Below, one piece after another: positions 2,651-18,941 of a stretch of DNA of 64,000 nt. Every line of letters starts with the position of its first letter. Position 1 is the stretch's first letter. The notes under the pieces were generated by a model. It saw only the letters and a program-made list of their open reading frames with translations, was not told where the DNA came from and did no database searches. Both the position numbers and the translations under genes were made by a program. Origin of the DNA: an uncultured Acidobacteriia bacterium. GTDB taxonomy: Bacteria > Acidobacteriota > Terriglobia > Bryobacterales > Bryobacteraceae. The stretch spans positions 1-64,000 of the forward strand of contig CAINNJ010000004.1 in NCBI GenBank assembly GCA_903851195.1, written 5' to 3'.

Positions 2651-3207
2651 TGCGCTATATACTCAGCAAGCGCACCCCCGCCGGCACGCGCCTCCTCCTC
2701 GTCGAAAGCGGCTCGCGCTCGCTCGCCGAAGGCATCATCCCGCACCTCCAATCGGACTGGGCCGAGTCTTACGAGATCGACCTCATCACCTGCTACGGAG
2801 GCCTCCCCGCCGGACTCCCTGAACACACCCGCGTCTTCCGCGTCGCCGACTACGGTTCGCCCGAAAAGCGCCGCGAACTCGTCGCCGAACTGCGCGCCCG
2901 CGACTACGCCTACCTCGGCATGATCTGCTCCGCCGAGTCCATCATGACCAAGTGGAAATGGCTCGTCGCCCTCCGCGTCCCGGCCAAAGTCTTCATCATT
3001 AACGAAAATGGCGACTATTTCTGGATGCACCGCGAAAACGCCGCCATCCTGCGCGAGTTCGCCCTGGTGCGCATGGGCCTCGAAGGTGCCGGCGCCATCC
3101 GCACTCTCGGACGCCTCTTCGCCTTCCCGTTCACTTTTCTGTATCTGATACTGTATGCATTCACCGCGCACGCAGGCCGCGCGTTCCGACTCAAATTCAA
3201 ATCATGA
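2647..3207 (+). CDS. Conserved hypothetical protein with C-terminal membrane helix
   Basis: 186 residues from GTG 2647, or 185 from the adjacent ATG 2650; both overlap the TGA of the TPR gene. The N-terminal part (RLLLVESGSRSLAEGIIPHL, then EIDLITCYGG) alternates short beta strands and helices, like the first Rossmann-like half of GT-B glycosyltransferases such as the heptosyltransferase group. No sugar-nucleotide site can be recognised and the protein is far too short for a complete GT-B enzyme. The C-terminus has a hydrophobic helix (LFAFPFTFLYLILYAF, about 158-173) followed by basic residues, so the protein is probably a tail-anchored inner-membrane protein with its N-terminal domain in the cytoplasm. 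Its stop overlaps the start of the quinone oxidoreductase gene. Function unknown. Confidence 0.7.
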   Translation: MMRYILSKRTPAGTRLLLVESGSRSLAEGIIPHLQSDWAESYEIDLITCYGGLPAGLPEHTRVFRVADYGSPEKRRELVAELRARDYAYLGMICSAESIMTKWKWLVALRVPAKVFIINENGDYFWMHRENAAILREFALVRMGLEGAGAIRTLGRLFAFPFTFLYLILYAFTAHAGRAFRLKFKS

Positions 3208-4172
3208 AACTCATCCAGATCTCCCAGACCGGCGGCCCCGAAGAACTCCGGCTCGCCGATGCCGATATCCCCACGCCGGGCCCGAAGCACGTCCTCGTCA
3301 GGATCGGCGCCGCCGGCGTCAACTTCATCGACGTCTACTTCCGCATCGGCCTCTACCCGGCCCCGCTGCCCTTCACTCCCGGTAACGAAGGCGCGGGCGT
3401 CATCGAGGCCGTCGGCCCCGATGTCACCGACTTCAAAGTCGGCGACCGCGTCGCCTGGGGCATGTGGCGTGGCTCCTACGCCGAGTACGCCGCCATCCCC
3501 GTTGCCGCCCTCGTGCACCTCCCGGATTCCGTGGATTTCGAGACCGGCGCCGCCGCCATGCTGCAGGGCATGACCGCGCACTACCTCTCGCACTCGTCCT
3601 TCCCGCTGAAGAAGGGCGATACTTGCCTTATCCACGCGGCCGCGGGCGGCGCGGGACGCCTGCTCGTCCAGATGGCGAAGATGCTCGGAGCCACCGTCTA
3701 CGGCACCGCCGGCACGGACGAGAAAGCCGCCATCGCGAAGTCCGCCGGAGCCGACGAAGTCATCGTCTACACCCGTCAGGATTTCGTGCAGGAAGTGAAG
3801 AACCTCACCGGCGGCAAGGGCGTCGATGTGGTCTATGACTCGGTCGGCGTCGACACCTTCCTGAAAGGTCTCGACATCATCCGCCCCCGCGGCATGATGG
3901 TCCTGTTCGGCCAGTCCAGCGGCGCCGTGCCGCCCTTCAACCCCGCCCTCCTCAACCAGAAGGGCTCGCTCTTCCTGACCCGCCCCAGCCTCGCCCACCA
4001 CTGCCTCACCAAAGAGGAACTGAACGGGCGCGCCTCGGACGTCCTCAACTGGATCGGCGAGGGCAAACTCGAACTGCGCATCCACAAGACGTACGCGCTC
4101 GGCGACGCCGCCCAGGCGCACAAAGATCTCGAAGGACGCGGCACGGCAGGCAAACTGCTGCTGGTCAACTAA
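3204..4172 (+). CDS. NAD(P)H:quinone oxidoreductase, zeta-crystallin type (MDR superfamily)
   Basis: 322 residues, the usual length for quinone reductases of the medium-chain dehydrogenase superfamily. The N-terminal GroES-like domain has GAAGVNFIDVYFRIG and FTPGNEGAGVIEAVG. The cofactor domain has the Rossmann loop AAAGGAGRLLVQMAK (145-159), followed by KSAGADEVIVY and VYDSVG. The zinc-binding Cys/His residues of alcohol dehydrogenases are absent, as expected for zinc-free quinone reductases. It would reduce quinones or enones in the cytoplasm with NADPH. ATGA overlap with the upstream gene places it in the same operon; the next gene starts immediately after its TAA. Family is certain, physiological substrate is not. 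Confidence 0.92.
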   Translation: MKLIQISQTGGPEELRLADADIPTPGPKHVLVRIGAAGVNFIDVYFRIGLYPAPLPFTPGNEGAGVIEAVGPDVTDFKVGDRVAWGMWRGSYAEYAAIPVAALVHLPDSVDFETGAAAMLQGMTAHYLSHSSFPLKKGDTCLIHAAAGGAGRLLVQMAKMLGATVYGTAGTDEKAAIAKSAGADEVIVYTRQDFVQEVKNLTGGKGVDVVYDSVGVDTFLKGLDIIRPRGMMVLFGQSSGAVPPFNPALLNQKGSLFLTRPSLAHHCLTKEELNGRASDVLNWIGEGKLELRIHKTYALGDAAQAHKDLEGRGTAGKLLLVN

Positions 4173-5219
4173 ATGCGCAGCGTCGCTCTTCCCCCGGAGA
4201 CCGACGCGCTGCTGGTCACCCGGCTGCACAACATCCGTTACCTCACCGGCTTCACCGGCAGTAACGCGATGTTGCTGCTTCTCGGCGGCACGCGCGCCGT
4301 GCTCTATACGGACCCTCGCTACACGGTCCAGTCGAAACAGCAGGCCGATTGCGCCATCAAAATCGCCACCGGCGGGCTCGGCAAAGCCGCGCTCAAAGAC
4401 ATCCGCCGCCGCAGGATCGTCAAACTCGGCTTCGAGCAGGATCACCTCACTTACGCGCAGTACGAATCGCTCAAAAAGGAACTGCCGCTCAGCGCCGAAC
4501 TCGTCCCGCTCTCCGGCTTCATCGAGAAGCTGCGCACAGTGAAGGACGACGCCGAGATCGCCCTCATCCGGGCCTCCGTCGACACCAACTCGAAGGCCCT
4601 CGCCAACGCTCTGAAGCGCCTCAAGCCCGGCATCTCCGAGGCCGACTTCGCCGCCGAGATCGATTACCAGAACCGCCGCCTCGGCGCCGAAGCCCCCGCC
4701 TTCGACACCATCGTCGCCGCCGGCCCGCGCGCCGCCCTGCCCCACGCGCATCCGGGTTCCACGAAGATCGCTCCCGGCATGCTGCTCATCGACATGGGCG
4801 CGTTCCGCGACGGCTACGCCAGCGACATGACCCGCATGGTCCACCTCGGCCCCGCGACCACGAAATACAAGAAGGCCTACAAAGCGGTGCTCGAAGCCCA
4901 GCTCGCCGCCATCCACGCCATACGCCCCGGCGCGAAGACCAGCGCGGTGGATAAGGCCGCGCGCGACGTCCTCAAGGCCCACGGGCTTGAGAAAGAGTTC
5001 ATCCACTCCACCGGCCACGGACTCGGCCTCGAGATCCACGAACCGCCGCGCATCGGCCGCAAGGACAAGACAAAACTTGAAGCGGGCATGGCCATCACCG
5101 TCGAACCCGGCGTCTACATTGAGGGCTGGGGCGGCATCCGCATCGAGGACACCGTGCTCGTCACGGCCACCGGCTGCGAGATCCTCACGCCCACCAGCAA
5201 GGAGTTACGTGAGCTCTAG
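4173..5219 (+). CDS. M24-family Xaa-Pro aminopeptidase
   Basis: 348 residues with the two-domain plan of short prolidase/aminopeptidase P enzymes: a creatinase-like N-terminal domain (1-125, with RYLTGFTGSNA) and a pita-bread catalytic domain. All five metal ligands are present: Asp207 and Asp218 in DMGAFRDGYASDMTR, His282 in GHGLGLEIHE, Glu311 in TVEPG and Glu325 in RIEDT. His191 matches the conserved active-site histidine. It should cleave N-terminal residues preceding proline, using two Mn or Co ions, in the cytoplasm. It begins directly after the TAA of the quinone reductase (zero spacing), so it is the last gene of this + strand operon; the following genes run in the opposite direction. 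Confidence 0.93.
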   Translation: MRSVALPPETDALLVTRLHNIRYLTGFTGSNAMLLLLGGTRAVLYTDPRYTVQSKQQADCAIKIATGGLGKAALKDIRRRRIVKLGFEQDHLTYAQYESLKKELPLSAELVPLSGFIEKLRTVKDDAEIALIRASVDTNSKALANALKRLKPGISEADFAAEIDYQNRRLGAEAPAFDTIVAAGPRAALPHAHPGSTKIAPGMLLIDMGAFRDGYASDMTRMVHLGPATTKYKKAYKAVLEAQLAAIHAIRPGAKTSAVDKAARDVLKAHGLEKEFIHSTGHGLGLEIHEPPRIGRKDKTKLEAGMAITVEPGVYIEGWGGIRIEDTVLVTATGCEILTPTSKELREL

Positions 5220-6893: not shown

Positions 6894-8720
6894 ATGCCAA
6901 ACTGTTGTGAGGTGAGGGGCTCCATTACACGAAGGGCGTTACTCGGCCAGGCCGCGGCTGCCGCCGTCCGGGCACAGACCGGCACTGAAGATCCCCTGCG
7001 CTCGCTGCGTCCCGAACACCCGCGTCTGCTGCTCCCCGATTCCGAACTGGAGCGTCTCCGGGCGCTGGTCCGCGACCACTCGCTCGCCCGCCGCATCTAC
7101 GGCGATATGGAAAAGGAGTGCGACCGCCTCCTCTCCATCCCGCCGGTCGAGTACAAGCTGAACGGCCCGCGTCTGCAGCAGCAGACGCGCAAAGCCATCG
7201 ACCGCATCCTCACGCTGTCTCTGATGTACCGCCTCGCGAAGCGCGATCCCTGGCTGCGCCGCGCCATCATGGAACTGAACGCGGCGGCGAACTTCCGCGA
7301 CTGGAATCCGGCGTGCTTTGTCGATACGGCCGAGATGACGTTCGCGTTCGCGATCGGCTACGACTGGCTGTACAATTCGCTCTCCCCGGATGAACGCGGC
7401 TGGGTGCGAGACGCCCTGATCACGAAGGGTCTCGATCAGGCGTTGCCTTACTACCAGAAGCAGACCTGGTGGACGCGCGAACGTCTCCACTGGAACGTGG
7501 TCTGCAACAGTGCCATGGCGATGGGCGCTCTGGCGGTCGCGGACGACGCCCGCGAGAAGTCCGCCGAAGTTCTTCGCAGCGCGCTCGATTCGGTCACTCA
7601 CGGCCTCGCCAGCTGGGGTCAGGACGGCGCCTGGCCCGAAGGTCCGGCCTACGGTGAGTTCACGGCCCGCTACGCCGCGCTGCTCTATGCGTCGCTCGAC
7701 ACGGCTCTCGGGACCGACGGCGGTCTGGGCGCATTCCACGGCCTCGAAAAAGCCGGCCGCTATCGCCTGTACAGCATCGGCCCCACCAACCGCGTCTTCA
7801 ACTTCTCCGATGGCCCCGAAGACCCCGGCCTCGCGCCCGGCATGTTCTGGATGGCGAAGCGCTACAACGCGCCCGCCTATGCCTGGAGCGAGCAGAAACA
7901 GCTCGAGCGGAACCCCCATCCCGACGCGCTCGATCTTGCCTGGTTCGATCGCGATTCGAAGCCTCCGCAGCCGCCGCTCTGGCCTCTCGATGCCGCGTTC
8001 CACGGCGTGGGAGTGGCCACGTTCCGCAGTTCCTGGGACGACCCCGCGGCGCTCTTCGTGGCCGTGAAAGGCGGCGACAACAAGGCCAGCCACGCCCATC
8101 TCGACCTCGGCTCGTTCGTCCTCGACGCCGGCAACGTGCGCTGGGCCTCCGACCTCGGCGCCGACGACGTCGCGCCTCCCGGCTTCCCGCGCGGCTCCAT
8201 CTACCGCGTGCGCACCGAGTCGCACAACACGCTGCTGATCGACGGCGAAAATCAGGACGCCCGCGCCGAAGCCCGCATCACCCGCCAGGAGATGACGCCC
8301 GACTTCAGCTGGGTGCAGCTCGACCTGTCGAAGGCCAGTCTCAGGATCCGGCAATGGACACGGCGGGTGGGCATGGCGCAGCGCCAGGCCGTTCTCATCC
8401 AGGACACCCTGCGCAGCGATCAGCCGGTCGAAGCGATCTGGGGCATGATGACGGATTCGGAAATCACCGTGAACGGCCCCACCGCGACGCTGCGCAAGAA
8501 CGGCTGGAACCTGACCGCGGAGATCCGCTCGCCGCGCCATGCCGTCTTCGACATCGCGCCGTTGCGCACACCGGCGCCGCAGCCGCAGAATCCGAAGTTT
8601 CAGAAGCTCATCGTGCGGCTGTTTGAAAAGGTAACGGACCTCGATCTGAACATCGTTCTGACACCCTGGAAGGACGGTCAGACGAGGCCGAGGATCACGG
8701 CCCAGTTTCCCGCGTCATGA
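6894..8720 (+). CDS. Heparinase II/III-family protein
   Basis: 608 residues from ATG 6894; the frame stays open upstream but that region is the antisense of the HAD gene. The N-terminus has an Arg-Arg pair and hydrophobic stretch (TRRALLGQAAAAAVRAQ), suggesting Tat or Sec export. An alpha/alpha-toroid domain (about 35-370) includes NVVCNSAMAMGALAV and DGAWPEGPAYGEF. The C-terminal heparinase II/III-like beta domain begins near 375 (GVGVATFRSSWDDP) and holds the conserved SHAHLDLGSFVLDAG and ESHNTLLIDG motifs. The family comprises polysaccharide lyases acting on uronic-acid polymers (heparin, alginate-like). It is the first gene after a strand switch and overlaps the next gene by ATGA. Substrate cannot be read from sequence. 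Confidence 0.88.
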   Translation: MPNCCEVRGSITRRALLGQAAAAAVRAQTGTEDPLRSLRPEHPRLLLPDSELERLRALVRDHSLARRIYGDMEKECDRLLSIPPVEYKLNGPRLQQQTRKAIDRILTLSLMYRLAKRDPWLRRAIMELNAAANFRDWNPACFVDTAEMTFAFAIGYDWLYNSLSPDERGWVRDALITKGLDQALPYYQKQTWWTRERLHWNVVCNSAMAMGALAVADDAREKSAEVLRSALDSVTHGLASWGQDGAWPEGPAYGEFTARYAALLYASLDTALGTDGGLGAFHGLEKAGRYRLYSIGPTNRVFNFSDGPEDPGLAPGMFWMAKRYNAPAYAWSEQKQLERNPHPDALDLAWFDRDSKPPQPPLWPLDAAFHGVGVATFRSSWDDPAALFVAVKGGDNKASHAHLDLGSFVLDAGNVRWASDLGADDVAPPGFPRGSIYRVRTESHNTLLIDGENQDARAEARITRQEMTPDFSWVQLDLSKASLRIRQWTRRVGMAQRQAVLIQDTLRSDQPVEAIWGMMTDSEITVNGPTATLRKNGWNLTAEIRSPRHAVFDIAPLRTPAPQPQNPKFQKLIVRLFEKVTDLDLNIVLTPWKDGQTRPRITAQFPAS

Positions 8721-9214
8721 CCCGGCGATCCGTCCTGCGCACACTTTTGGCCTCTTCCGCCAGGGGTGTGGCGGGGGCGGATACGGCGGTGGCGGATACA
8801 TCGGACTTCGCGCCCCGCATCTTCGCGCGAATCAATGAACTGCGGCGCGCTTCCGGCGTGGAGCCGCTGGCCTGGTCGGATGCTTTGGGCCGCTGTGCCC
8901 GGGAGCAGAGCGCGCGCAAAGAGCAGTTGCGCTTCCCGGGGCATGACGACCCGGATCGCGGCACGGTAGCCCAGCGGGTGCAGGCCGCCGGTATCGCCTG
9001 GCAGCGGTGCGGGGAGAATCTCTTCTCCGAGCGCGGCTGGGACGATCCCGTGAACTTCGCTGTGGTGTTCTGGTGGTACAGCGCGGGACATCGGGCGAAC
9101 CTGCTGAACCCGGACTTCACCGAGTCCGGAGTAGGTGTGGTGAAAGGGGCTGACGAGACGTATTATATAACTCAGATATTTGTGCTTCCCGCTCCATTCC
9201 GGCCCCGTCGATGA
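8717..9214 (+). CDS. Exported CAP-domain (SCP/PR-1-like) protein
   Basis: 165 residues. A short basic/hydrophobic N-terminus (MTRRSVLRTLLASSARGVAGA) looks like a signal sequence. The rest is a bacterial YkwD-type CAP domain: RINELRRASGVEPLAWSDAL is the first helix, the family histidine lies in GHDDPD, followed by GENLF, WWYSAGHRANLL and the closing strand YYITQIF. CAP proteins of bacteria are extracytoplasmic and mostly of unknown role. The gene starts within the stop codon of the heparinase-like gene, so the two exported proteins are co-translated and may act on the same surface or environmental polymer; that last point is inference. Confidence 0.85.
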   Translation: MTRRSVLRTLLASSARGVAGADTAVADTSDFAPRIFARINELRRASGVEPLAWSDALGRCAREQSARKEQLRFPGHDDPDRGTVAQRVQAAGIAWQRCGENLFSERGWDDPVNFAVVFWWYSAGHRANLLNPDFTESGVGVVKGADETYYITQIFVLPAPFRPRR

Positions 9215-9294: not shown

Positions 9295-10164
9295 ATGAAA
9301 GCGTCTGCAACAACAGAAGCTCAGGAGTCCCTGCGCTTATCGGATATTCTCGCGCGGCACGAAACGGAACTGCTGTCGCAATGGATCGATGAACAGATGT
9401 CCGCGTCCACCCTGCGGCGCGATCTGATGAAGGAATCGGAGCTCCGCGAACAGTCGGAGCAGTTTCTCTCGCTGCTGCGGCAGGCCACGCGGTCGGAAAA
9501 CCTGAAAGACACCACACGGCCCGAATGGGAAGGCGTGCGCGAGTTTCTCATCGACCTCTCCGGCTCCCGCGCCGCGCAGGGCTTCACGCCCTCGGAAACG
9601 GCCACGTTCATCTTCTCTCTCCGGGCGCCTCTCACCGAACTGCTGCAGCGCGCCGATGCCCCCCCGGCCAGCGTGCGCGCCGCTACAGTCCTGCTGGACA
9701 AACTGGGCCTCTTCACCTTCGAGGGCTATCAGAAGAGCCGCGAAGCCGTCATCAGCCGGCAGCAGCAGGAGATGCTGGAACTCTCCACGCCGGTGGTGCG
9801 GCTGTTCGAAGGCATCGTGGCGCTGCCGCTGATCGGGACTCTCGACAGCGCGCGCACGCAGGTCGTCATGGAAAACCTGCTGGAGCGCATCGTGGAAACC
9901 GGCGCGGAAATCGCCATCATCGACATCACCGGCGTGCCGACCGTGGACACGCTGGTGGCGCAGCATCTGCTCAAAGCCGTCGCCGCCGCGCGCCTGATGG
10001 GCGCGGACTGCATCATCAGCGGCATTCGTCCGCAGATCGCGCAGACCATCATCCATCTGGGCGTGGATCTGCAGAACGTGACCACGAAGGCTAACCTGGC
10101 GGATGCGCTGCGCCTCGCGCTGCAGAAGCTGGGACTGACGGTCGGCCGCAAGAGCGAGAAGTAG
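9295..10164 (+). CDS. rsbR: RsbR-type stressosome STAS protein (RsbRD-like N-terminus)
   Basis: 289 residues. The N-terminal half (about 15-150) is all-helical and resembles the RsbRD N-terminal domain rather than a globin or PAS sensor. The C-terminal STAS domain (about 165-285) closely follows RsbR proteins: DITGVPTVDTLVAQHLL, then GIRPQIAQTIIHLGVDLQ. Thr219 (VDT) and Thr251 (IAQT) lie at the places where RsbR proteins are phosphorylated by RsbT. In known systems RsbR and RsbS co-assemble into the cytoplasmic stressosome that holds RsbT until stress. It is the first gene of a run of six, with AAGGAG 10 bases before the ATG, and RsbS follows after one base. Sensor input unknown. Confidence 0.92.
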   Translation: MKASATTEAQESLRLSDILARHETELLSQWIDEQMSASTLRRDLMKESELREQSEQFLSLLRQATRSENLKDTTRPEWEGVREFLIDLSGSRAAQGFTPSETATFIFSLRAPLTELLQRADAPPASVRAATVLLDKLGLFTFEGYQKSREAVISRQQQEMLELSTPVVRLFEGIVALPLIGTLDSARTQVVMENLLERIVETGAEIAIIDITGVPTVDTLVAQHLLKAVAAARLMGADCIISGIRPQIAQTIIHLGVDLQNVTTKANLADALRLALQKLGLTVGRKSEK

Positions 10165-10165
10165 C

Positions 10166-10558
10166 ATGGAGCGCATTCCGATCCTGAAGATGGGTGACTT
10201 CCTGCTGGTCACCATTCAGGTCGACATGCACGACCAGATGGCTCTGGCGTTGCAGGACGATCTGACGGAGCGCATTGTCCGCACCGGCGCGCGCGGCGTG
10301 CTGATCGATATCTCGTCGCTGGAGATTGTGGATTCCTTCATCGGCCGCATGCTCGGCGTCATCGCGGGCATGTCGCGCGTGCTCGACGCGGAGACCGTGG
10401 TGGTGGGCATGCAGCCCTCGGTGGCCATCACGCTGGTGGAACTTGGGCTCGCGCTGACGGGCGTCCGCACCGCGCTCAATGTCGAAAAGGGGATGAAGCT
10501 GCTCCGGGCGGCGACAGGTCTGGCGGACGAGACAAATCATGCCGGCGAACGAGAGTAA
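10166..10558 (+). CDS. rsbS: RsbS-type stressosome scaffold, single STAS domain
   Basis: 130 residues, the length of a lone STAS domain. It matches RsbS in IPILKMGDFLLVTIQVDMHD at the N-terminus and DISSLEIVDSFIGRMLG in the middle. Ser57 (VDSF) corresponds to the serine phosphorylated by RsbT in characterised RsbS proteins, so the switch residue is intact. It should form the stressosome core with RsbR and bind RsbT while unphosphorylated. The start lies one base after the RsbR stop; the C-terminal end overlaps the rsbT start by 20 bases, a typical arrangement for co-translated partners. The last 15 residues beyond the STAS fold are charged and probably flexible. Confidence 0.93.
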   Translation: MERIPILKMGDFLLVTIQVDMHDQMALALQDDLTERIVRTGARGVLIDISSLEIVDSFIGRMLGVIAGMSRVLDAETVVVGMQPSVAITLVELGLALTGVRTALNVEKGMKLLRAATGLADETNHAGERE

Positions 10559-10946
10559 GGAACTGCCGCTGCGCACCGACGACGACATTGTTCGCATGCG
10601 GCAGGCGGTCCGCTCCATTGCCATCGAGACGGGCCTGAGTCTGGTGGATCAGACCAAACTGGTGACGGCGGCCAGCGAACTGGGCCGGAATACGAGGATC
10701 TATGGCGGCGGCGGGTCGGTGAAGATAGAGAAGGTGGACAACGGCATCCGGCGCGGTGTGCGGCTGACCTTCGAAGACCACGGCACGGGCATCCCGAACG
10801 TGGAACTGGCGCTCAAAGATGGTTACACGACAGGGGGCGGACTCGGCCTGGGACTGGGCGGGTCGAAGCGGCTGTGCAATGAGTTCGAGATCGACAGCCG
10901 TCCCGGCGAAGGCACGCGAGTGATGATCGCAAGGTGGAAGCCCTGA
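10539..10946 (+). CDS. rsbT: RsbT-type serine/threonine kinase (GHKL anti-sigma-regulatory fold)
   Basis: 135 residues, the usual size for RsbT. The GHKL ATPase motifs are complete: N-box TAASELGRNTRIYG (Glu47, Asn51), G1 box DHGTGIPN (Asp80) and G2 box GLGLGLGGSKRL. Known RsbT phosphorylates RsbS and RsbR, leaves the stressosome and then activates a partner phosphatase such as RsbU. No RsbU, RsbV, RsbW or sigma-B gene is present in the window, so the downstream target here must be different. The immediately following genes encode two further proteins with RsbT-like domains. The gene overlaps rsbS by 20 bases and the next gene by 13. Confidence 0.93.
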   Translation: MPANESKELPLRTDDDIVRMRQAVRSIAIETGLSLVDQTKLVTAASELGRNTRIYGGGGSVKIEKVDNGIRRGVRLTFEDHGTGIPNVELALKDGYTTGGGLGLGLGGSKRLCNEFEIDSRPGEGTRVMIARWKP

Positions 10947-11950
10947 ACGGCGCGGCGAAGCGGGTGCCGGTCTCCGAGTCCAGTCAGCTGGCCGAGGCGC
11001 GGCGCGTGGCGCTCGGTCTGGCGAGGGCGGCCGGGTTCGACGAGACCAAGGCGGGCAAAGCCGCGATCGCGGTGACCGAAGCCGCCAGCAACCTGCTGAA
11101 GCACGCGGGCCGCGGCGAGATTCTGCTGCAGACTCTGGACGACAAGCGCCGGGGGCGCGGCGTGGAGATGCTCGCGCTGGACAAAGGACCGGGCATTGAG
11201 AACGTGGGCGAAAGCCTGCGCGACGGCTACTCGACGGCGGGCAGCGCGGGCGAGGGTCTGGGCGCCATCTCCCGGCAGGCGGACGTCTTCGACATCTACT
11301 CGCGCCCGGGGCTGGGCACCGGGATTCTGGCGCAGTTCTGGGCCAGGCCCGCCACCGTTCCGGAGGTCTTCGAGACCGGCGGCATCTCCATCGCGGTGGA
11401 GGGCGAACAGGTCTGCGGCGACGTCTGGAGCTTCCGGGTCACGCCGGACGGCATGTCCGCCTTCGTGGCCGATGGTCTGGGCCACGGCTCGCTGGCGGAG
11501 GCCGCGGCGCGCAACGCCGTGGTCGCTTACGAGAGTCATGCGGCCGAGCCCCTGCCGGAACTGCTGGACGTCGTCCACCGGGCGTCCCAAAGCACGCGCG
11601 GAGCGGCGGTGGCGGTGGCGCGGCTGAACCCAGCCAGCCGCAGGGTGGAGTTCGCGGGAGTCGGGAATATCGCGGCCGTGCTGGCGGGCGCCGGCGGCAT
11701 GCGCCACATGGTTTCGATGAGCGGCATCATCGGCCACCACGTGCGCTCCTTCCGGGAATTCACCTACGAGTGGGAGCCCGGCGCGCTGCTGATTCTGCAC
11801 TCCGACGGCGTGGGCACGCGCTGGGATCTCGCCGCGTATCCGGGACTCGCCCGGAAGCACTGCAGTCTGATCGCGGGCGTGCTCTGGCGCGATATGGCGA
11901 GAGGCCGGGACGATGCCACGGTGTTCGTCGCGAGGGAAGGATCGCGATAA
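10934..11950 (+). CDS. RsbT-like ATPase fused to PP2C/SpoIIE-type phosphatase (RsbX-like)
   Basis: 338 residues starting at GTG 10934. Residues 15-135 are a second RsbT-like GHKL domain with N-box TEAASNLLKHAG, G1 DKGPGIEN and G2 GEGLGAISR. Residues 150-336 are an RsbX/SpoIIE-type PP2C phosphatase. The metal-binding aspartates are kept: Asp163 in CGDVWSF, Asp180 in VADGLGHG, Asp291 in LHSDGV, Asp326/327 in GRDDATV. In stressosome systems the RsbX phosphatase resets RsbS and RsbR by dephosphorylation. Position immediately after rsbT and the fused ATPase domain support that job, with the ATPase part perhaps docking onto the STAS scaffold or phosphorylating it. The fusion makes one protein a potential kinase and phosphatase of the same target. 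It overlaps rsbT by 13 bases. Confidence 0.88.
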   Translation: MEALNGAAKRVPVSESSQLAEARRVALGLARAAGFDETKAGKAAIAVTEAASNLLKHAGRGEILLQTLDDKRRGRGVEMLALDKGPGIENVGESLRDGYSTAGSAGEGLGAISRQADVFDIYSRPGLGTGILAQFWARPATVPEVFETGGISIAVEGEQVCGDVWSFRVTPDGMSAFVADGLGHGSLAEAAARNAVVAYESHAAEPLPELLDVVHRASQSTRGAAVAVARLNPASRRVEFAGVGNIAAVLAGAGGMRHMVSMSGIIGHHVRSFREFTYEWEPGALLILHSDGVGTRWDLAAYPGLARKHCSLIAGVLWRDMARGRDDATVFVAREGSR

Positions 11951-11951
11951 C

Positions 11952-13715
11952 ATGCTGCCGATTCTCACGGTCGCCATCGCGCATGAGAAGGACATCGTGT
12001 CGGCGCGGCGCCGCGCGCGGCAACTGGCGCGGCTGCTGAAGTTTCCCGATCAGGACGGCACGCGCATCGGCACGGCCGTGTCGGAGATCGCGCGCAATGC
12101 GTGGGCCTACGGGCACGGCGGCAAGGTGGAATTCGCGATCGACCCGGAGCCGCCGCAGACGTTCCGGATCCAGGTGACCGATCAGGGCCCGGGCATCGCG
12201 GACGTGGAGGCGATTCTGGCGGGCCGGTACAAGTCGTCCACCGGCATGGGAATGGGCATCGTCGGCGCGCGGCGGCTGGTGGATGACTTCCGGATGACGT
12301 CGGCCCCCGGCCAGGGAACCCGCGTGGTGCTGCGCAAATATCTGCCGGCCGGCCACGCCGCCGTCACCCCGAAGAGCCTGGCCGCGCTGGCGGATCAACT
12401 GGCCCTGGAGCCGCAGGATATCTACGATGAGATTCGCTGCCAGAATCAGGAACTGCTGAACACGCTCGAAGACGTGCGGCGTCGCGACGAAGACCTGAGC
12501 CGGATCAACCGCGAACTGGAGGACACCAATCGCGGCGTGGTGGCGCTGTATGCCGAACTCGATCAGCGCGCCGAGCAACTGCGGTACGCGGACCGCATGA
12601 AGACGCGCTTCCTCTCGCACATGAGCCATGAGTTCCGGACGCCGCTCAACGCCATCGTGGGGCTCTCCCGGCTGCTGCTGAAGCGCGAGGCGGTGGCGCA
12701 GAATCCGGACGTCGCGAAGGAGGTGACGTTCATTCAGCAGACGGCGCTCTCGCTGACGGAGATCGTGGACGATCTGCTCGATCTCTCGAAAGCCGAGAGC
12801 GGCAAGCTGACCGTGCAGGCGGCGGAGACGAATCTGAACACGCTGTTCGCCACGCTGCGCGCGATGCTGCGGCCGCTGGTGGGGAACAACGCCGTGGAAC
12901 TGGTCTTCGAGGATGCCTCCGCCATTCCGCCGCTGGTGAGCGACGAGAGCAAGATCTCGCAGATTCTGCGCAATCTGCTCTCGAACGCGCTGAAGTTCAC
13001 CGAGCGCGGCGAGGTGCGGGCCGCCGCTGTTTACGATCCGGAGCGGGACATGGTCACGTTCACGGTGTCGGATACGGGCATCGGCATCGCGAAGGAGCAT
13101 CAGGAGCGGATCTTCGAAGAGTTCGCGCAACTGGAGAACCCGCTGCAGAAGAACACGAAGGGCACGGGGCTGGGGTTGCCGTTGTGCAGGAAACTGGCGG
13201 AACTGCTGGGCGGGACGATCGCGGTGGAAAGCGAGCCGGGGGCCGGTTCGCGGTTCACGGTCAGGATCCCGCGGTCGTACGAGGCCGGCGCGCGGGCGCC
13301 GCACGGACCGCAACGCACCGTGCTGCTGATCGACGACGCCGAGGTGTCGCGCTATCTGCTGCGGCAACTGCTCGAAGGCAGTTTCCGCCTGGTGGAGGCG
13401 TCCGGCGGCGCCGAAGGGGTGGAACTGGCCTGGAGACTGCGTCCGGATTTGATTATGCTGGATCTGAACATGCCCGGCCTGAATGGATTCGAAGTTCTGG
13501 AAAAGCTCAGAGGAGGGGCCGAGACGCGCGGGATTCCCGTGGTGGTGGTAACGGGACAGAAGCTGGACGCGCACGAACTGGAACTGCTGGGCAAACAAAC
13601 GGTGGCGGTGCTGCGCAAAGAGATGCTGACCGGCACCGAAAAGCTGTCGATCGATTTCGGACCTCCGGTCACGGTGATTCCCGGCTATGGGGGCGGCACG
13701 ACGTGGAACGGCTGA
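11952..13715 (+). CDS. RsbT-like ATPase fused to hybrid histidine kinase with receiver domain
   Basis: 587 residues from ATG 11952, one base after the previous stop. Domain order: RsbT-like GHKL domain (about 5-130; SEIARNAWAYG, DQGPGIAD, GMGMGIVGARRL), helical linker probably coiled coil (about 155-212), HisKA with His226 in SHMSHEFRTPLN, HATPase_c (about 325-440; ILRNLLSNALKF, SDTGIGIA, GTGLGLPLCRKL), and a receiver domain (about 455-575) with phospho-acceptor Asp504 in IMLDLNMPG. There is no membrane segment or PAS/GAF sensor, so the input is presumably through the RsbT-like domain. In this operon that means capture and release by the RsbR/RsbS scaffold. This links stressosome signalling straight to phosphorelay. 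Its C-terminus overlaps the following kinase gene by 13 bases. Confidence 0.9.
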   Translation: MLPILTVAIAHEKDIVSARRRARQLARLLKFPDQDGTRIGTAVSEIARNAWAYGHGGKVEFAIDPEPPQTFRIQVTDQGPGIADVEAILAGRYKSSTGMGMGIVGARRLVDDFRMTSAPGQGTRVVLRKYLPAGHAAVTPKSLAALADQLALEPQDIYDEIRCQNQELLNTLEDVRRRDEDLSRINRELEDTNRGVVALYAELDQRAEQLRYADRMKTRFLSHMSHEFRTPLNAIVGLSRLLLKREAVAQNPDVAKEVTFIQQTALSLTEIVDDLLDLSKAESGKLTVQAAETNLNTLFATLRAMLRPLVGNNAVELVFEDASAIPPLVSDESKISQILRNLLSNALKFTERGEVRAAAVYDPERDMVTFTVSDTGIGIAKEHQERIFEEFAQLENPLQKNTKGTGLGLPLCRKLAELLGGTIAVESEPGAGSRFTVRIPRSYEAGARAPHGPQRTVLLIDDAEVSRYLLRQLLEGSFRLVEASGGAEGVELAWRLRPDLIMLDLNMPGLNGFEVLEKLRGGAETRGIPVVVVTGQKLDAHELELLGKQTVAVLRKEMLTGTEKLSIDFGPPVTVIPGYGGGTTWNG

Positions 13716-15961
13716 AGAGCGGAGTTCCGACGATTCTGAACGTGGACGACCGCGAGGTCAACCGCTATATCCGGACCCAGACGCTGCGGGGCGCGGGATA
13801 CCGGATTGTGGAAGCGGGGACGGGCGCGGAGGCACTCCGGCTGTTCCGGGACGAGAGTCCGCAACTGGTGCTGCTCGACATGAACCTGCCCGATATGGAC
13901 GGCGTGGATATCTGCCGGATCATCAAAGCGTCGCCAGGGTTTTGTTCCACCATTGTGCTGCACATTTCCGCGTCGCTCACCAGCGTGCAGGACCGCGTGC
14001 AGGGGCTGGAGGGCGGCGCGGACGGGTATCTGGTGGAACCGGTGGAGCCGGAACTGCTGCTGGCCACGGTGCGCTCGATGCTGCGGTTGTGGATGGCCGA
14101 GACGCGGCTCGAAGAGAGTCTGACAATGTCCCGGGAACTGGCCGCGCGCTACCAGTCGCTGATCGAGGCCGTGCCGCACGTGATTTTCACCACCAGAGCC
14201 GACGGCGAGTGCGATTACGTCAACGAGCAGTTCGCGACGTACACGGGACGGCATCCGAAAGAAGCGTTCGGAAACGGCTGGACGAACCTCGCGCATCCGG
14301 AAGACCGCGAGCGCGCCGCCCTGTTGTGGGCCGGGTCGATCCGGACCGGCGAGCCTTTTGAGACCGAGTACCGCTTCTGGCATGCCGATGGCACCTGGCG
14401 CTGGAATCTGTCCCGCGCGCGCCCCGTGCGGAACGCCGCCGGGGCGGTGGTGCAGTGGGTGGGCAGCGTGACGGACGTGCATGAACGCAAGATGCTGGAT
14501 GAAGCGGTGCGGCTGCGTCATGAAGAGTTCGTGGCGCTGGCGGAGCATTCGCCGGACAGCATCGCGCGGCTGGACACGGAACTGCGCTATCTGTATCTGA
14601 ACCGGGTGCTGCCGGGCATGTGTGGGGCGACCCGGGAAGAGTATATCGGGAAGACGAACCGCGAACTGGGCTGGCCCGCCGGGATCTGTGACGTGCGGGA
14701 AGAGAACTGCAGGCAGGTGCTGGCGACAGGGAAGCCGGTGGCGTTCGAGTTCCAGCATACCGGCCCGGACGGCAGGACGGCGTACTATCAGGCGCGGCTG
14801 GTGCCGGAGTTTCGCGCCGGAGAAGTGGAAGCTTTACTCTCCATCACGACGGACGTCACGGAACGCCGGGAGGCGGAACTGGCCGTGGCGGAAAGCGAGC
14901 GCCGGTTGCGGCGGCTGGTGGAGAGCAATGTCATCGGCGTGGTGATCGGCGATAACGAAAGAATCACGTATGCCAACGATGTGTTTCTGGAAATGCTCGG
15001 ATATTCCCGGCAGGATCCGGAATCGGGCGAGTTGCGCTGGCGGGCGCTGACGCCGCCGGAATATTTGCCGCTCGACGAACGCTGCATCGAGGAACTGAAA
15101 GAGCGGGGCGCGTGCGCGCCGTTCGAGAAGGAGTACTGGCGGCGCGACGGCACGCGGGTGCCGATTCTGATCGGCGCGGCGGCGCTGGACAACGCGGCGA
15201 CGGAGTGGGCCTGCTTCGTGCTGGATCTGACGGGGCTGAAGAATGCGGAGGACGCGTTGCGGAGGACGAATCTGGCGCTGCAGCGCTCCAACACGGACCT
15301 GGCGCAGTTCGCCTATGCGGCGAGCCACGATCTGCAGGAACCGCTGCGGGCGGTGGGAATCTACACGCAGTTGCTGTCGCGGGAGTCCGTGGCGGCGATC
15401 AGTCCGGAGGCGTCGAGGCATCTGGGGCTGATTCTGGCCGCGGTGCGGCGTATGCAGACGCTGATCACGAATCTGCTGGCGTTTTCCCAGGCGCAGAGCG
15501 CGGAGTTCCGGTTTGCCGGGCCGGTGCCGGCGGGCGACATGGTGCAGGGCGCGACGGAGAATCTGAAGAACGCGATGGAAGAAAGCGGCGCGGTGCTCAC
15601 CTGGCGCGATCTGCCGCCGATTCCCGCCGACGCTTCGCAGTTCACGCTGGTCTTCCAGAATCTGATCAGCAATTCGATTAAGTACCGGCGGGCGGACGTG
15701 CAGCCGCGGATCGACATCTCGGCCGAGCGCGAGGGGAACAGCTGGGTCTTCGCGGTGCGGGACAACGGGATGGGGTTCGAGCAGGCGCAGGCGGAACGGA
15801 TCTTCAGCCCGTTCACGCGGCTGCATGGCCGGGAGTTGCCGGGCACGGGGATCGGCCTCGCGATCGTGCAGAAGGTGATCGAGCGGCATGGCGGGCAGGT
15901 GTGGGCGGAAGGGCAGCCGGGCGCGGGCGCCACGTTCTTCTTCCGGCTGCCTGCACATTAA
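13703..15961 (+). CDS. Histidine kinase with N-terminal receiver and three PAS domains
   Basis: 752 residues from GTG 13703, a start chosen because it puts the receiver domain at the N-terminus and overlaps the previous gene by 13 bases. Domains: receiver (about 8-125, Asp59 in VLLDMNLPD), PAS1 (about 140-260, HADGTWRWNLSRARPV), PAS2 (about 268-390), PAS3 (about 395-520, RRDGTRVPILIGAA), HisKA with His542 in AASHDLQEPLRAVG, HATPase_c (about 635-750; NLISNSIKYR, DNGMGFE, GTGIGLAIVQKV). No membrane helix: a cytoplasmic kinase. The receiver could accept phosphate from the preceding hybrid kinase, placing this protein next in a relay, but the final DNA-binding output regulator is not in the window. 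Confidence 0.9.
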   Translation: MERLKSGVPTILNVDDREVNRYIRTQTLRGAGYRIVEAGTGAEALRLFRDESPQLVLLDMNLPDMDGVDICRIIKASPGFCSTIVLHISASLTSVQDRVQGLEGGADGYLVEPVEPELLLATVRSMLRLWMAETRLEESLTMSRELAARYQSLIEAVPHVIFTTRADGECDYVNEQFATYTGRHPKEAFGNGWTNLAHPEDRERAALLWAGSIRTGEPFETEYRFWHADGTWRWNLSRARPVRNAAGAVVQWVGSVTDVHERKMLDEAVRLRHEEFVALAEHSPDSIARLDTELRYLYLNRVLPGMCGATREEYIGKTNRELGWPAGICDVREENCRQVLATGKPVAFEFQHTGPDGRTAYYQARLVPEFRAGEVEALLSITTDVTERREAELAVAESERRLRRLVESNVIGVVIGDNERITYANDVFLEMLGYSRQDPESGELRWRALTPPEYLPLDERCIEELKERGACAPFEKEYWRRDGTRVPILIGAAALDNAATEWACFVLDLTGLKNAEDALRRTNLALQRSNTDLAQFAYAASHDLQEPLRAVGIYTQLLSRESVAAISPEASRHLGLILAAVRRMQTLITNLLAFSQAQSAEFRFAGPVPAGDMVQGATENLKNAMEESGAVLTWRDLPPIPADASQFTLVFQNLISNSIKYRRADVQPRIDISAEREGNSWVFAVRDNGMGFEQAQAERIFSPFTRLHGRELPGTGIGLAIVQKVIERHGGQVWAEGQPGAGATFFFRLPAH

Positions 15962-15985: not shown

Positions 15986-16324
15986 TTATCCGCGCGCGCC
16001 GGGCGGCGGACCGAGGACGGCCATGACGACGAGGCGGCCGGGGCCGGGATTGCGGATGGAGTGAAGAACGCCGGAGGGCGCGAGGGCGATGTCCCCGGTG
16101 GCGAGAAGTTCGGTTGCGTCGCCGATGAGAACTTCCGCCGCGCCCTGCAGGACGACGTAGAGCTTGTCCTGTCCCTCATGGGTGTGCGGCGCGTGTTCCT
16201 GGCCGGGCTCGAAGGCGTTCAGGCCGGCGAAGAGGAACTCGCCCCGCGCGAGCGTGCCTTTGGTCATGCGGTCGGGCGAGAAGGTGGCGAGGGCGGCGGG
16301 TTGTCGGACGAACATGCCCGTCAT
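15986..16324 (-). CDS. Small cupin-domain protein
   Basis: 112 residues from ATG 16324 (109 from ATG 16315); longer in-frame starts would run into the opposite permease gene. It is a single conserved beta-barrel cupin. Motif 1 is approximated by GLNAFEPGQEHAPHTHEGQDKL with His residues of H-x-H and a following Glu; motif 2 by GDIALAPSGVLHSIRNPG with His. It can therefore bind a divalent metal. Stand-alone cupins are diverse (isomerases, dioxygenases, small-molecule sensors), so no reaction is proposed. It converges on the stressosome kinase gene and diverges from the permease gene, leaving 70 bases for the two promoters. Confidence 0.8.
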   Translation of the reverse strand: MTGMFVRQPAALATFSPDRMTKGTLARGEFLFAGLNAFEPGQEHAPHTHEGQDKLYVVLQGAAEVLIGDATELLATGDIALAPSGVLHSIRNPGPGRLVVMAVLGPPPGARG

Positions 16325-16394
16325 TGTAAACGGCGGCGTGAATCTTTTCGAACCTGGTTTCCGGTCTGTTCGTAATAGTGGTGAGCGCATAACC

Positions 16395-18941
16395 ATGACG
16401 ACCTTTCCGCAGGACCTGAAGTACGGCATCCGGATGCTGGTGAATAAACCGGGATTTACAGCAGCGGCGGTGCTGGTGCTGGCGCTGGGGATCGGCGCGA
16501 ACAGCGCGGTGTTCAGCCTGGTGAATGCGTTCCTGCTGAAGCCGCTGGCGGTGCGGGAACCGGAGCAGCTAAGCGGGCTTTACAGCCGGGATGTGAAGCA
16601 TCCGGATGTCTACCGGGCGTTCTCGTATCCGAACTATCTGGATATCCGGGAGAATCACGCGGTATTCAGCAGCTTGATGGCGCACACGCTGGCGATGGTG
16701 GGCATTACGGAAGGCGAGACGACGCGGCGGGCGTTCGCGGGCATTGTGTCGTCGAATTACTTCAGCACGCTGGGCGTTTCTCTGCTGCAAGGCCGGACGT
16801 TCACGCCGGAGGAAGAGAAGCCGGGGGCGGCCGGATTGCCGGTGATCGTGTCGCATGCGTTCTGGAAGAAGACGGGGCGGAATCCACAGTTGTTGGGCAG
16901 CCCGCTGCGCATTAACGGACGCGTGTTCACGGTGGTGGGGATCACGCCGGAGGGCTTCAGCGGAACGACGGCGCTGGTGAGTCCGGACATCTTTGTCCCG
17001 CTGGGCGTTTACGGCCTGGTGATGAACGATTTCGAGACCCAGGGCAAGCCGCTGACGGCGCGGGACAACGCGTCGCTGATCCTGGTGGGGCGATACCGCG
17101 AAGGCATGACGCAGGCGGGCGCGGCGGCGCCGCTGGCGGTGTTGTCGTCGCAGATGGAGCAGGCGTATCCGGCGGTGAATAGAGATCAGGCGCTGCTGGC
17201 GAGACCGCTTTCGCGCATGAGCATTTCGACGAATCCGTCAACCGATTCGTCGATGCGGTTGCCGGCGATTCTGCTGCTGTCGCTTTCGGCGGTGGTGCTG
17301 CTGATTGCGTCGCTGAACCTGTCGAACATGATGATGGCGAGGGGCGCGGCGCGGCGCAAGGAGATCGCGATCCGGCTGGCGATCGGCGGCGGGCGCGGGC
17401 GCATTGTGCGGCAGCTGATCACCGAGGGGATGCTGCTGGCGATGCTGGGCGGCGCGGGCGGCCTGCTGCTGGCGTCCTGGAGCACCACGCTGCTGATCTC
17501 TTCGCTGCAGAGGCTGGCGCCGCTCGATCTGGTGTATGACGCGAGTCCGGACATCCGTGTGGTGGGCGCGACGCTGGCGTTCTGCGGGCTGAGCACGGTG
17601 GTGTTCGCGCTGTTTCCGGCGTGGAAGCTCTCGAAGCCGGACATGTGGTTCGACCTGAAGGAGAACACCGGAGAAGACGTGGCGGGCGGGGCGCGGCGGC
17701 TGTTTTCGCGCGGCAATCTGCTGGTGATGGGGCAACTGTCTTTGTCGCTGATGATGCTGACGGCGGCGGGGATGTTTATCCGGAGCGCGATGCGGGCGGC
17801 CGATGTGCAGCCCGGTTTTTCGATGAACAACGAGGTGATTGCGGAGACGGATCCGAGCCTGATCAATTACGACGAGGCGCGCGGTCGGCGGGTGTATGCG
17901 GAAGTGACGGAACGGCTGCGGCGGCTGCCCGGCGTGCAGAGCGTGGGGCTGGCGGCTACGGTGCCGTTCGGGATGGTCAGTCTGGGGAAGAGCATCTTGC
18001 CGGCCGGGACGAAGGCGTCGAAGGAAAATCCGGGCGTCAGCGCGCGCTACAACGTGGTGACGGGCGAGTATTTCGCCACGCTGGGGATTCCGCTGCTGCG
18101 GGGCCGGTCGTTCTCGGCGGCCGAGAACGGCGCAAGCGCGAAGAGTCACGTGGCGGTGCTGGATCGGCTGGCGGCTGCGAAGTTGTGGCCGGGCGGCGAG
18201 GCGCTGGGAAAACGCATCCGGCTGGATGAAGGGGGCGCGGGCGGCGGCATCGGGATTTCGACCGACGTGGCGGAGGCGAGGCCGGAGGACCTGGAAGTGG
18301 TGGGAGTGGTCGGCGAGATTCGCGAGGGGATTCTGGGTGGCACGGGGCCGACGCCGCATGTCTATGTGCCGTTCGGGCAGAACTATCTGGCGAACATGCA
18401 GATTCATCTGAAGACGTCGGCGGGTGTGCCCGAAGCGCAGATGCTGGAAGGGGTGCGGCGGGAGATTCGGGCCGTGGATGAGCGGCTGCCGCTACTGGCG
18501 CTGCGGACCATGCGGGGACATCTGGAAGCGGGCGTGGATCTGTGGGTGATGCGGACGGGGGCGACGGTGCTCGAGATCTTCGGCGGCGTGGCGCTGTTTC
18601 TGGCGGTGATCGGGCTGTATGCGGTGAATGCGTATACGGTGTCGCGGCGAACGCGGGAGATCGGGATCCGGATGGCGCTGGGCGCGGATACGGGGACGAC
18701 GCTGGGGATGGTGCTGCGGGAAGGGCTGCGGGTGACGGCGGCGGGGATCGGGCTGGGGCTGCTGCTGGCGGTGGGGCTGAGTCAAGTGCTGGCGGGCGTG
18801 CTGTATGAGGTGGGGGCGTTCGATCCGGTGGTGTTGGGGATCGCGCCGCTGCTGCTGGGAGCGGTCGCGTTGCTGGCTTGTTATGTGCCGGCGCGGCGGG
18901 CGGCGCGGGTGGATCCGATGGTGGCTTTGCGGTGCGAGTAG
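16395..18941 (+). CDS. Duplicated orphan FtsX/MacB-like permease (acidobacterial ADOP type)
   Basis: 848 residues from ATG 16395. An N-terminal transmembrane helix (about 20-42, AAAVLVLALGIGANSAVFSL) is followed by a MacB-type periplasmic core, then three helices (about 285-420 region; ILLLSLSAVVLLIASLNLSN, LLAMLGGAGGLLLASW). The whole unit then repeats: a second periplasmic core and a final FtsX-like set (VLEIFGGVALFLAVIGLYAV, VTAAGIGLGLLLAV, LLLGAVALLACYV). This is the layout of the duplicated orphan permeases abundant in Acidobacteria. They carry MacB_PCD and FtsX domains twice in one chain and have no cognate ATP-binding protein next door; none is seen here either. Transported substrate unknown. 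Codons end mainly in G, like the rest of the right-hand region. Confidence 0.92.
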   Translation: MTTFPQDLKYGIRMLVNKPGFTAAAVLVLALGIGANSAVFSLVNAFLLKPLAVREPEQLSGLYSRDVKHPDVYRAFSYPNYLDIRENHAVFSSLMAHTLAMVGITEGETTRRAFAGIVSSNYFSTLGVSLLQGRTFTPEEEKPGAAGLPVIVSHAFWKKTGRNPQLLGSPLRINGRVFTVVGITPEGFSGTTALVSPDIFVPLGVYGLVMNDFETQGKPLTARDNASLILVGRYREGMTQAGAAAPLAVLSSQMEQAYPAVNRDQALLARPLSRMSISTNPSTDSSMRLPAILLLSLSAVVLLIASLNLSNMMMARGAARRKEIAIRLAIGGGRGRIVRQLITEGMLLAMLGGAGGLLLASWSTTLLISSLQRLAPLDLVYDASPDIRVVGATLAFCGLSTVVFALFPAWKLSKPDMWFDLKENTGEDVAGGARRLFSRGNLLVMGQLSLSLMMLTAAGMFIRSAMRAADVQPGFSMNNEVIAETDPSLINYDEARGRRVYAEVTERLRRLPGVQSVGLAATVPFGMVSLGKSILPAGTKASKENPGVSARYNVVTGEYFATLGIPLLRGRSFSAAENGASAKSHVAVLDRLAAAKLWPGGEALGKRIRLDEGGAGGGIGISTDVAEARPEDLEVVGVVGEIREGILGGTGPTPHVYVPFGQNYLANMQIHLKTSAGVPEAQMLEGVRREIRAVDERLPLLALRTMRGHLEAGVDLWVMRTGATVLEIFGGVALFLAVIGLYAVNAYTVSRRTREIGIRMALGADTGTTLGMVLREGLRVTAAGIGLGLLLAVGLSQVLAGVLYEVGAFDPVVLGIAPLLLGAVALLACYVPARRAARVDPMVALRCE

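Follow-up and report, generated by a model that had tools for sequence, protein, structure and literature searches.

A six-gene stressosome operon

The stretch analysed here (hereafter the window) comprises 64,000 nucleotides from an uncultured Acidobacteriia bacterium (contig CAINNJ010000004.1, positions 1 to 64,000 of the forward strand). At 9295–15961 it contains six plus-strand genes in near-gapless succession (Table 1), in the order RsbR, RsbS, RsbT, a fusion of an RsbT-like domain with a PP2C phosphatase (TX), a fusion of an RsbT-like domain with a hybrid histidine kinase (TK) and a further kinase gene (gene 6). X_T and K_T denote the RsbT-like domains in TX and TK, respectively. We consider this operon as a stressosome whose phosphatase and output each carry an RsbT-like domain of their own.

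An earlier note on this DNA had described this gene order with its two fusions, histidine kinases after the PP2C gene, and genes that overlap by 13–20 bases or lie 1 base apart. Pfam profiles recover the order, the fusions and the kinases, and the coordinates agree with the spacing: 1 base separates RsbR from RsbS and TX from TK, while RsbS and RsbT overlap by 20 bases, RsbT and TX by 13, and TK and gene 6 by 13. The receiver positions given in that note (Asp504 and Asp59) are also correct with TK starting at ATG 11952 (another in-frame ATG lies at 11913) and gene 6 at GTG 13703.

Table 1. Genes of the operon, with domains and key residues.
Gene	Coordinates	Strand	Domains and residues
RsbR	9295..10164	+	RsbRD_N sensor domain and STAS (Pfam); Ser185 and Thr219 match Listeria RsbR residues 175 and 209
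RsbS	10166..10558	+	STAS (Pfam); Ser57 at the phospho-serine position
RsbT	10539..10946	+	Free switch kinase; HATPase (Pfam)
TX	10934..11950	+	HATPase_c_2 and SpoIIE (Pfam); RsbT-like at about residues 8–138, RsbX-like PP2C at about 145–336
TK	11952..13715	+	HATPase_c_2, HisKA, HATPase_c and REC (Pfam); RsbT-like at about residues 2–133, helical linker, His226, Asp504
gene 6	13703..15961	+	REC, PAS (three by PAS_9), HisKA and HATPase_c (Pfam); Asp59, His542

The nearest solved structures are RsbR chains for RsbR (E 2.5e-34) and an RsbS for RsbS (E 6.8e-32), and RsbT gives a weak match to SpoIIAB (E 0.001). Phospho-sites were placed by alignment to residue 56 of the RsbS chain and residues 175 and 209 of the RsbR chain, which we take to be the Listeria phospho-sites. 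They are well kept in relatives (RsbS Ser57 in 87/88; RsbR Ser185 in 86/87 and Thr219 in 87/87). The three adjacent genes with their phospho-sites thus have the make-up of an rsbRSTX stressosome module. RsbRD_N occurs in a single copy in the genome, that of the operon's RsbR. A core that carries several RsbR sensors was rejected because the genome contains no RsbR-type STAS besides R and S at E ≤ 0.001.

An RsbX-type PP2C follows directly after R-S-T, as in such modules, though with an added RsbT-like domain. The PP2C part of TX matches RsbX (3w40, E 1.5e-16) and a Moorella stressosome phosphatase (3zt9, E 3.6e-15). The best Foldseek match of a TX model (predicted local distance difference test score, pLDDT, 90.5) is 3zt9 (template modelling score, TM, 0.90 by target length), with RsbX next (0.79). 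The metal-site residues are kept in relatives (e.g. Asp163 in 95/95 and Asp291 in 93/95). With RsbX and the Moorella enzyme as its nearest relatives of known structure, the phosphatase should be the reset enzyme and not an RsbU-like output; TX also has no RsbU_N, and the role of RsbU was ruled out for it. The PP2C is therefore not a candidate for the next step in signalling.

K_T matches SpoIIAB (E 0.0014), and a model of K_T with its linker (pLDDT 91.5) best matches SpoIIAB chains, followed by RsbW. A helix at residues 157–214 of TK in the model runs into HisKA, which begins at 216 according to Pfam. TK has the HisKA His, HATPase_c and the receiver Asp of a two-component or phosphorelay output, and the Asp of the last receiver is kept in 76/76 relatives. 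A receiver-bearing gene lies within 400 bases after TK at 73/91 TK loci, contig ends not being excluded from this count. In these 73 gene 6 receivers, the phospho-acceptor Asp is kept in 72/73 and the switch position has no lysine in any of the 72 sequences with a residue there (Q in 36, E in 27, H in 7 and A in 2; one gap). Lack of the switch lysine makes an ordinary phosphorylation switch in this receiver doubtful, and the gene 6 receiver is an atypical one that is conserved across phyla. Phosphorelays do not usually pass phosphate directly from the Asp of one receiver to that of another. Among the six genes, Pfam detects neither a DNA-binding nor an enzyme output. The idea that the relay commonly ends in a stand-alone response regulator gains little support, as single-receiver genes upstream occur in only a few of the R-S-T-TX-TK neighbourhoods.

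We also searched the bacterium's own genome (7.72 Mb, 67 contigs) for the usual partners of a stressosome. RsbU_N has no match at E ≤ 1; a control search with the same family gave matches in 7/14 genomes, Bacillus subtilis included, and was above the cut-off in 1. No SigBFG-type sigma factor scores above the cut-off (24 matches at E ≤ 0.01, the best with 131 bits versus 234). The earlier statement that RsbU, RsbV, RsbW and sigma-B are missing thus extends to the whole genome for RsbU_N and a SigB-type sigma factor, while RsbV and RsbW are absent among the six operon genes by Pfam and the genome was not searched for either. SpoIIE-type PP2C domains occur at 14 places, that of TX included. Three such places follow one another on the minus strand of one contig (G000:C6:121512-126877). 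Next to the operon, a CAP-domain protein is encoded upstream (8717–9214), and the opposite strand encodes a cupin downstream (15986–16429); no connection of either to the system is seen.

Gene order and RsbT-like domains in relatives

We then compared the operon with related loci. A TK query matches 18/247 genomes of the same phylum at 1e-60. Seven of these matches, the own genome included, span K_T, one (G125) begins at residue 146, and the other ten begin at residue 164 or later and represent other kinases. R, S, T, TX, the kinase and gene 6 are all present in the neighbourhood in the six relatives and in G125, where the kinase lacks K_T (locus L027). At locus L022 (G231), R and the first part of S (~3000–4600) are inverted relative to the rest, which could be a true inversion or an assembly fault.

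A scan of contigs with K_T and its linker detected at least 566 relatives, and the best 80 were fetched and examined. TX precedes TK in all 80 of them, and the complete order R-S-T-TX-TK is present in 73/80; in five of the seven without it, a contig end lies no more than ~200 bases from the first gene. Loci L066 and L092 contain TX–TK pairs with ~7 kb upstream that holds no R, S or T. According to record titles, the best 80 include cyanobacteria, Acidobacteria, alpha-, beta- and gammaproteobacteria, Nitrospira, Rokubacteria, Planctomycetota, Anaeromyxobacter, Chloroflexi, Binatia and Ignavibacteria, several of them as metagenome bins. Bryobacterales bins belong to the nearest named relatives, in keeping with a probable acidobacterial host. 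The cluster also occurs in plasmid records of Deinococcus radiodurans (MP1), Deinococcus sp. KNUC1210, Sphingomonas and Paraburkholderia; the Sphingomonas and Paraburkholderia loci are annotated without gene 6. The order is therefore not due to chance, and its wide spread rules out a local curiosity. The conserved order that the earlier note proposed to look for recurs far beyond the own genome, and the fused form, which it described as a compact version, is not a local one but a branch that extends across many phyla. The fusions on RsbX and on the output are the interesting, widespread part of the system.

The RsbT-like domains fall into three classes. These were first set by profiles derived from relatives of the operon, and they match gene layout. 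In a tree of 274 domains, X_T (94/94, support 1.0), K_T (92/92, 0.917) and free RsbT (87/88, 0.946) separate from each other. The SpoIIAB protein provides a reference for their key residues, with Glu46 as catalytic base, Asn50 as Mg ligand and Arg20 as part of a cluster close to where the antagonist binds (PMC10345196; this and the papers cited below are drawn on in excerpt). The kinase Glu is kept in RsbT (Glu47, 88/88), X_T (94/94) and K_T (92/92), and so is the Mg-binding Asn (RsbT Asn51, 88/88; X_T, 94/94; K_T, 92/92). In RsbT and K_T these two residues align to SpoIIAB 46 and 50, and in X_T they are placed by alignment column only. The Arg that matches SpoIIAB Arg20 is kept in RsbT (Arg21, 87/88), X_T (Arg23, 94/94) and K_T (Arg19, 92/92), a match for which the register was extended beyond the alignment by a few residues in RsbT and by 16 residues in K_T. 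X_T varies at the Arg that precedes the Asn, which is invariant or nearly so in free RsbT.

Outputs with K_T and outputs with RsbU_N

Loci were also collected by their RsbS. RsbS matches occur in 24/297 genomes of the own phylum (at 1e-30) and, at 1e-25, in 23/398 genomes of the Burkholderia phylum, 12/296 of the phylum of the Ignavibacteria bin and 10/244 of the cyanobacterial phylum (11 places). All 70 RsbS places were classified by profile, with K_T counted above 30 bits. They comprise (i) 37/70 with a fused RsbX and a K_T output (34 with a kinase profile and three other); (ii) 10/70 with a fused RsbX and no K_T (nine kinases and locus L151); and (iii) 23/70 with RsbX unfused or out of view, none of which has K_T. 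K_T is thus found on the output at 37/47 places with a fused RsbX versus 0/23 without (Fisher p 5e-11, uncorrected for shared descent).

What follows RsbX at the other loci was examined in 24 of them (the 23 without a fused RsbX, plus L151), where the next protein was the first open reading frame of at least 150 amino acids after RsbX. It could be obtained from 21/24 loci, as L121 and L130 end too early and L129 shows no RsbX. RsbU_N is present in 17/21 of these proteins at E ≤ 0.01, or in 17/20 when the fused L151 is set aside; the four without it belong to L126, L149, L150 and L151. By contrast with these, RsbU_N is present in 0/37 K_T outputs at E ≤ 0.0005 (15 families, full list; proteins read from the K_T start), and at 0.01 the 25 families listed, out of 28, do not include it. 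Of the ten kinases without K_T at fused loci, eight were examined and none has it. K_T outputs and RsbU_N outputs therefore never occur together in the sampled loci. The possibility raised earlier that homologous operons always include RsbU does not apply to these 37 outputs; sigma factors were not looked for at these loci.

K_T is not confined to one type of output. Locus L117 of the own phylum carries K_T with GGDEF (GGDEF is counted in 2/37, the second, by layout, being its sister L118), and L034 and L147 carry K_T with HisKA_2/HWE kinases. A Streptomyces locus (L032) has a possible K_T with a PP2C; the match is weak (39 bits by profile), and Pfam sees SpoIIE alone.

We also placed these loci in a midpoint-rooted tree of RsbS and RsbR-STAS (76 loci, seven plasmid loci included and L022 left out). 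All 53 loci with a fused RsbX form one clade (support 0.946), within which the ten kinases without K_T (nine from the survey and one from a plasmid) form one group. This pattern suggests that K_T was gained once and later lost once. At loci L148 and L150 a plain RsbX is preceded by an additional free RsbT gene, and L173 has an X_T-like gene (121 bits for X_T and 111 for RsbT) beside a separate PP2C gene. These three loci possibly represent states before the TX fusion.

Known stressosomes and a proposed wiring

The rsbRSTX modules described by Heinz et al. 2022 (PMC9237108) have eleven downstream architectures, HisKA/REC phosphorelays included, and most of their downstream proteins lack RsbU_N. 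Phosphorelay outputs are thus already published, and what the earlier note proposed, a stressosome with such an output in place of a sigma-factor switch, is supported by the kinases that follow and by the lack of RsbU_N and a SigB-type sigma factor but is not new. The operon resembles those modules in its R, S and T genes, with an RsbX-type PP2C directly after them and then signalling proteins. It differs in the RsbT-like domains present on both RsbX and the output, whereas their RsbX is described as a single-domain PP2C and their outputs are linked by RsbU_N or by a proposed transient phosphorylation, and in its RsbRD_N sensor, whereas that survey concerned globin-coupled RsbR (PMC9237108). 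Histidine kinases and GGDEF enzymes with RsbU_N also adjoin stressosome genes, Moorella thermoacetica MtG being a named case (eLife 2025, PMC12143880). There, too, an N-terminal domain joins the stressosome to an exchangeable dimeric output enzyme; however, the RsbU_N output has a receptor for RsbT, while TK has an RsbT-like domain itself and no RsbU_N.

Other systems share parts of this organization. The B. subtilis operon (rsbRSTUVW-sigB-rsbX) has R, S, T and RsbX homologues in common with the operon described here, but no RsbU_N or SigB-type sigma factor was found in the latter's genome. The Vibrio vulnificus stressosome is tied to a two-component pair (PMC10014275). Another counterpart is DR_RS15570–DR_RS15595 on the MP1 plasmid of D. 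radiodurans R1, where profiles detect the same six genes and domains in the same order; the annotation of this plasmid-borne homologue names only STAS proteins, an anti-sigma regulatory factor and ATP-binding proteins. Deinococcus-group stressosomes were already listed in a 2005 paper by Pane-Farre, according to a 2020 review (PMC7358398). Our literature searches yielded no published description of RsbT-like domains on outputs, and the excerpts of PMC2887360, PMC6848086, PMC12189002 and PMC8115616 contain none of a TX/TK-type fusion; Pane-Farre 2005 and 2017, known from citations, may mention such domains.

In our judgement, the chances are about even that the operon represents a separate stressosome branch whose RsbX and output each dock through an RsbT-like domain of their own and are freed by phosphorylation. 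RsbR and RsbS would build the STAS core, and RsbT, X_T and K_T would dock on it and compete for the same STAS sites, so that the kinase is held at the core. Upon stress, RsbT, and perhaps X_T and K_T too, would phosphorylate RsbS Ser57 and RsbR Ser185 and Thr219. The RsbT-like domains may then lose affinity for the phosphorylated core and TK would be freed. Freed TK would pair by its long helix, autophosphorylate at His226 and pass the phosphate to Asp504; release and not docking would switch the kinase on. From Asp504 the phosphate could move on to other proteins, among which gene 6 is the nearest candidate. TX, drawn to its substrates by X_T, would dephosphorylate the core and so reset it. 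The GGDEF enzyme and the other kinase type in sister operons lead us to propose that the RsbT-like domain may behave as a plug on exchangeable outputs. A wider generalization, to which we lend slightly under even confidence, is that stressosomes have two wirings: one in which RsbU_N is the receptor for freed RsbT, and one in which copies of RsbT serve as plugs on RsbX and on an exchangeable output, the latter wiring having a single origin and a distribution over many phyla.

Several observations weigh against docking through plugs. The RsbS query was an alignment of 17 rows, every one from a fused locus, which biases the survey, and five of the 37 K_T outputs (L153–L157, Bacteroidota) have weak K_T scores of 36–45 bits. 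Because the fused-RsbX loci are one clade, few independent events underlie the association of K_T with the fusion. The domain is also dispensable in one lineage, as the group of ten kinases that lack it implies. The kept catalytic residues equally fit a kinase role without docking. Finally, the DGxST motif, which is kept in RsbT and X_T, is gone in K_T.

The operon could alternatively be an ordinary rsbRSTX and two-component module, whose fusions are inherited and have no special coupling role and whose kinase is controlled by free RsbT, which would transiently bind or phosphorylate it. Such modules are published, with transient RsbT-dependent phosphorylation proposed for outputs without RsbU_N (PMC9237108), and one lineage retains its kinase without K_T. 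We consider this explanation unlikely, because the catalytic and partner-site residues of the added domains are kept across many phyla and the domain is also joined to GGDEF and HWE/HisKA_2 enzymes, as would hardly be expected if it were idle. Rather more doubtful is the idea that the RsbT-like domains are mainly extra Ser/Thr kinases, such that TX combines a kinase and a phosphatase for RsbS and RsbR in a single chain, TK phosphorylates STAS proteins, and docking is substrate binding. The active-site Glu and Asn kept in every X_T (94/94) and K_T (92/92) would suit this role, but the loss of DGxST from K_T and the variable Arg of X_T point to changed, not duplicated, catalysis. That the signal finally reaches a partner switch for a sigma factor encoded elsewhere, where another PP2C replaces RsbU and the kinases form a side branch, is very improbable despite the 13 further SpoIIE-type PP2C places and a genome in which RsbV and RsbW were not searched for, given the lack of both RsbU_N and a sigma factor above the SigBFG cut-off and the kinase or other signalling enzyme that follows TX in relatives.

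An RsbT-like domain of their own on the outputs may explain how stress reaches outputs without the RsbU_N connector. The sequences of a large stressosome branch suggest an alternative and testable link to the output besides transient phosphorylation. The D. radiodurans set is among the proteins named for such testing and belongs to a tractable organism that is not a pathogen. If the plug wiring is true, the core would hold and release the output enzyme itself and not a messenger, and these domains would be a natural parts kit for coupling a stress sensor to kinases or cyclases.

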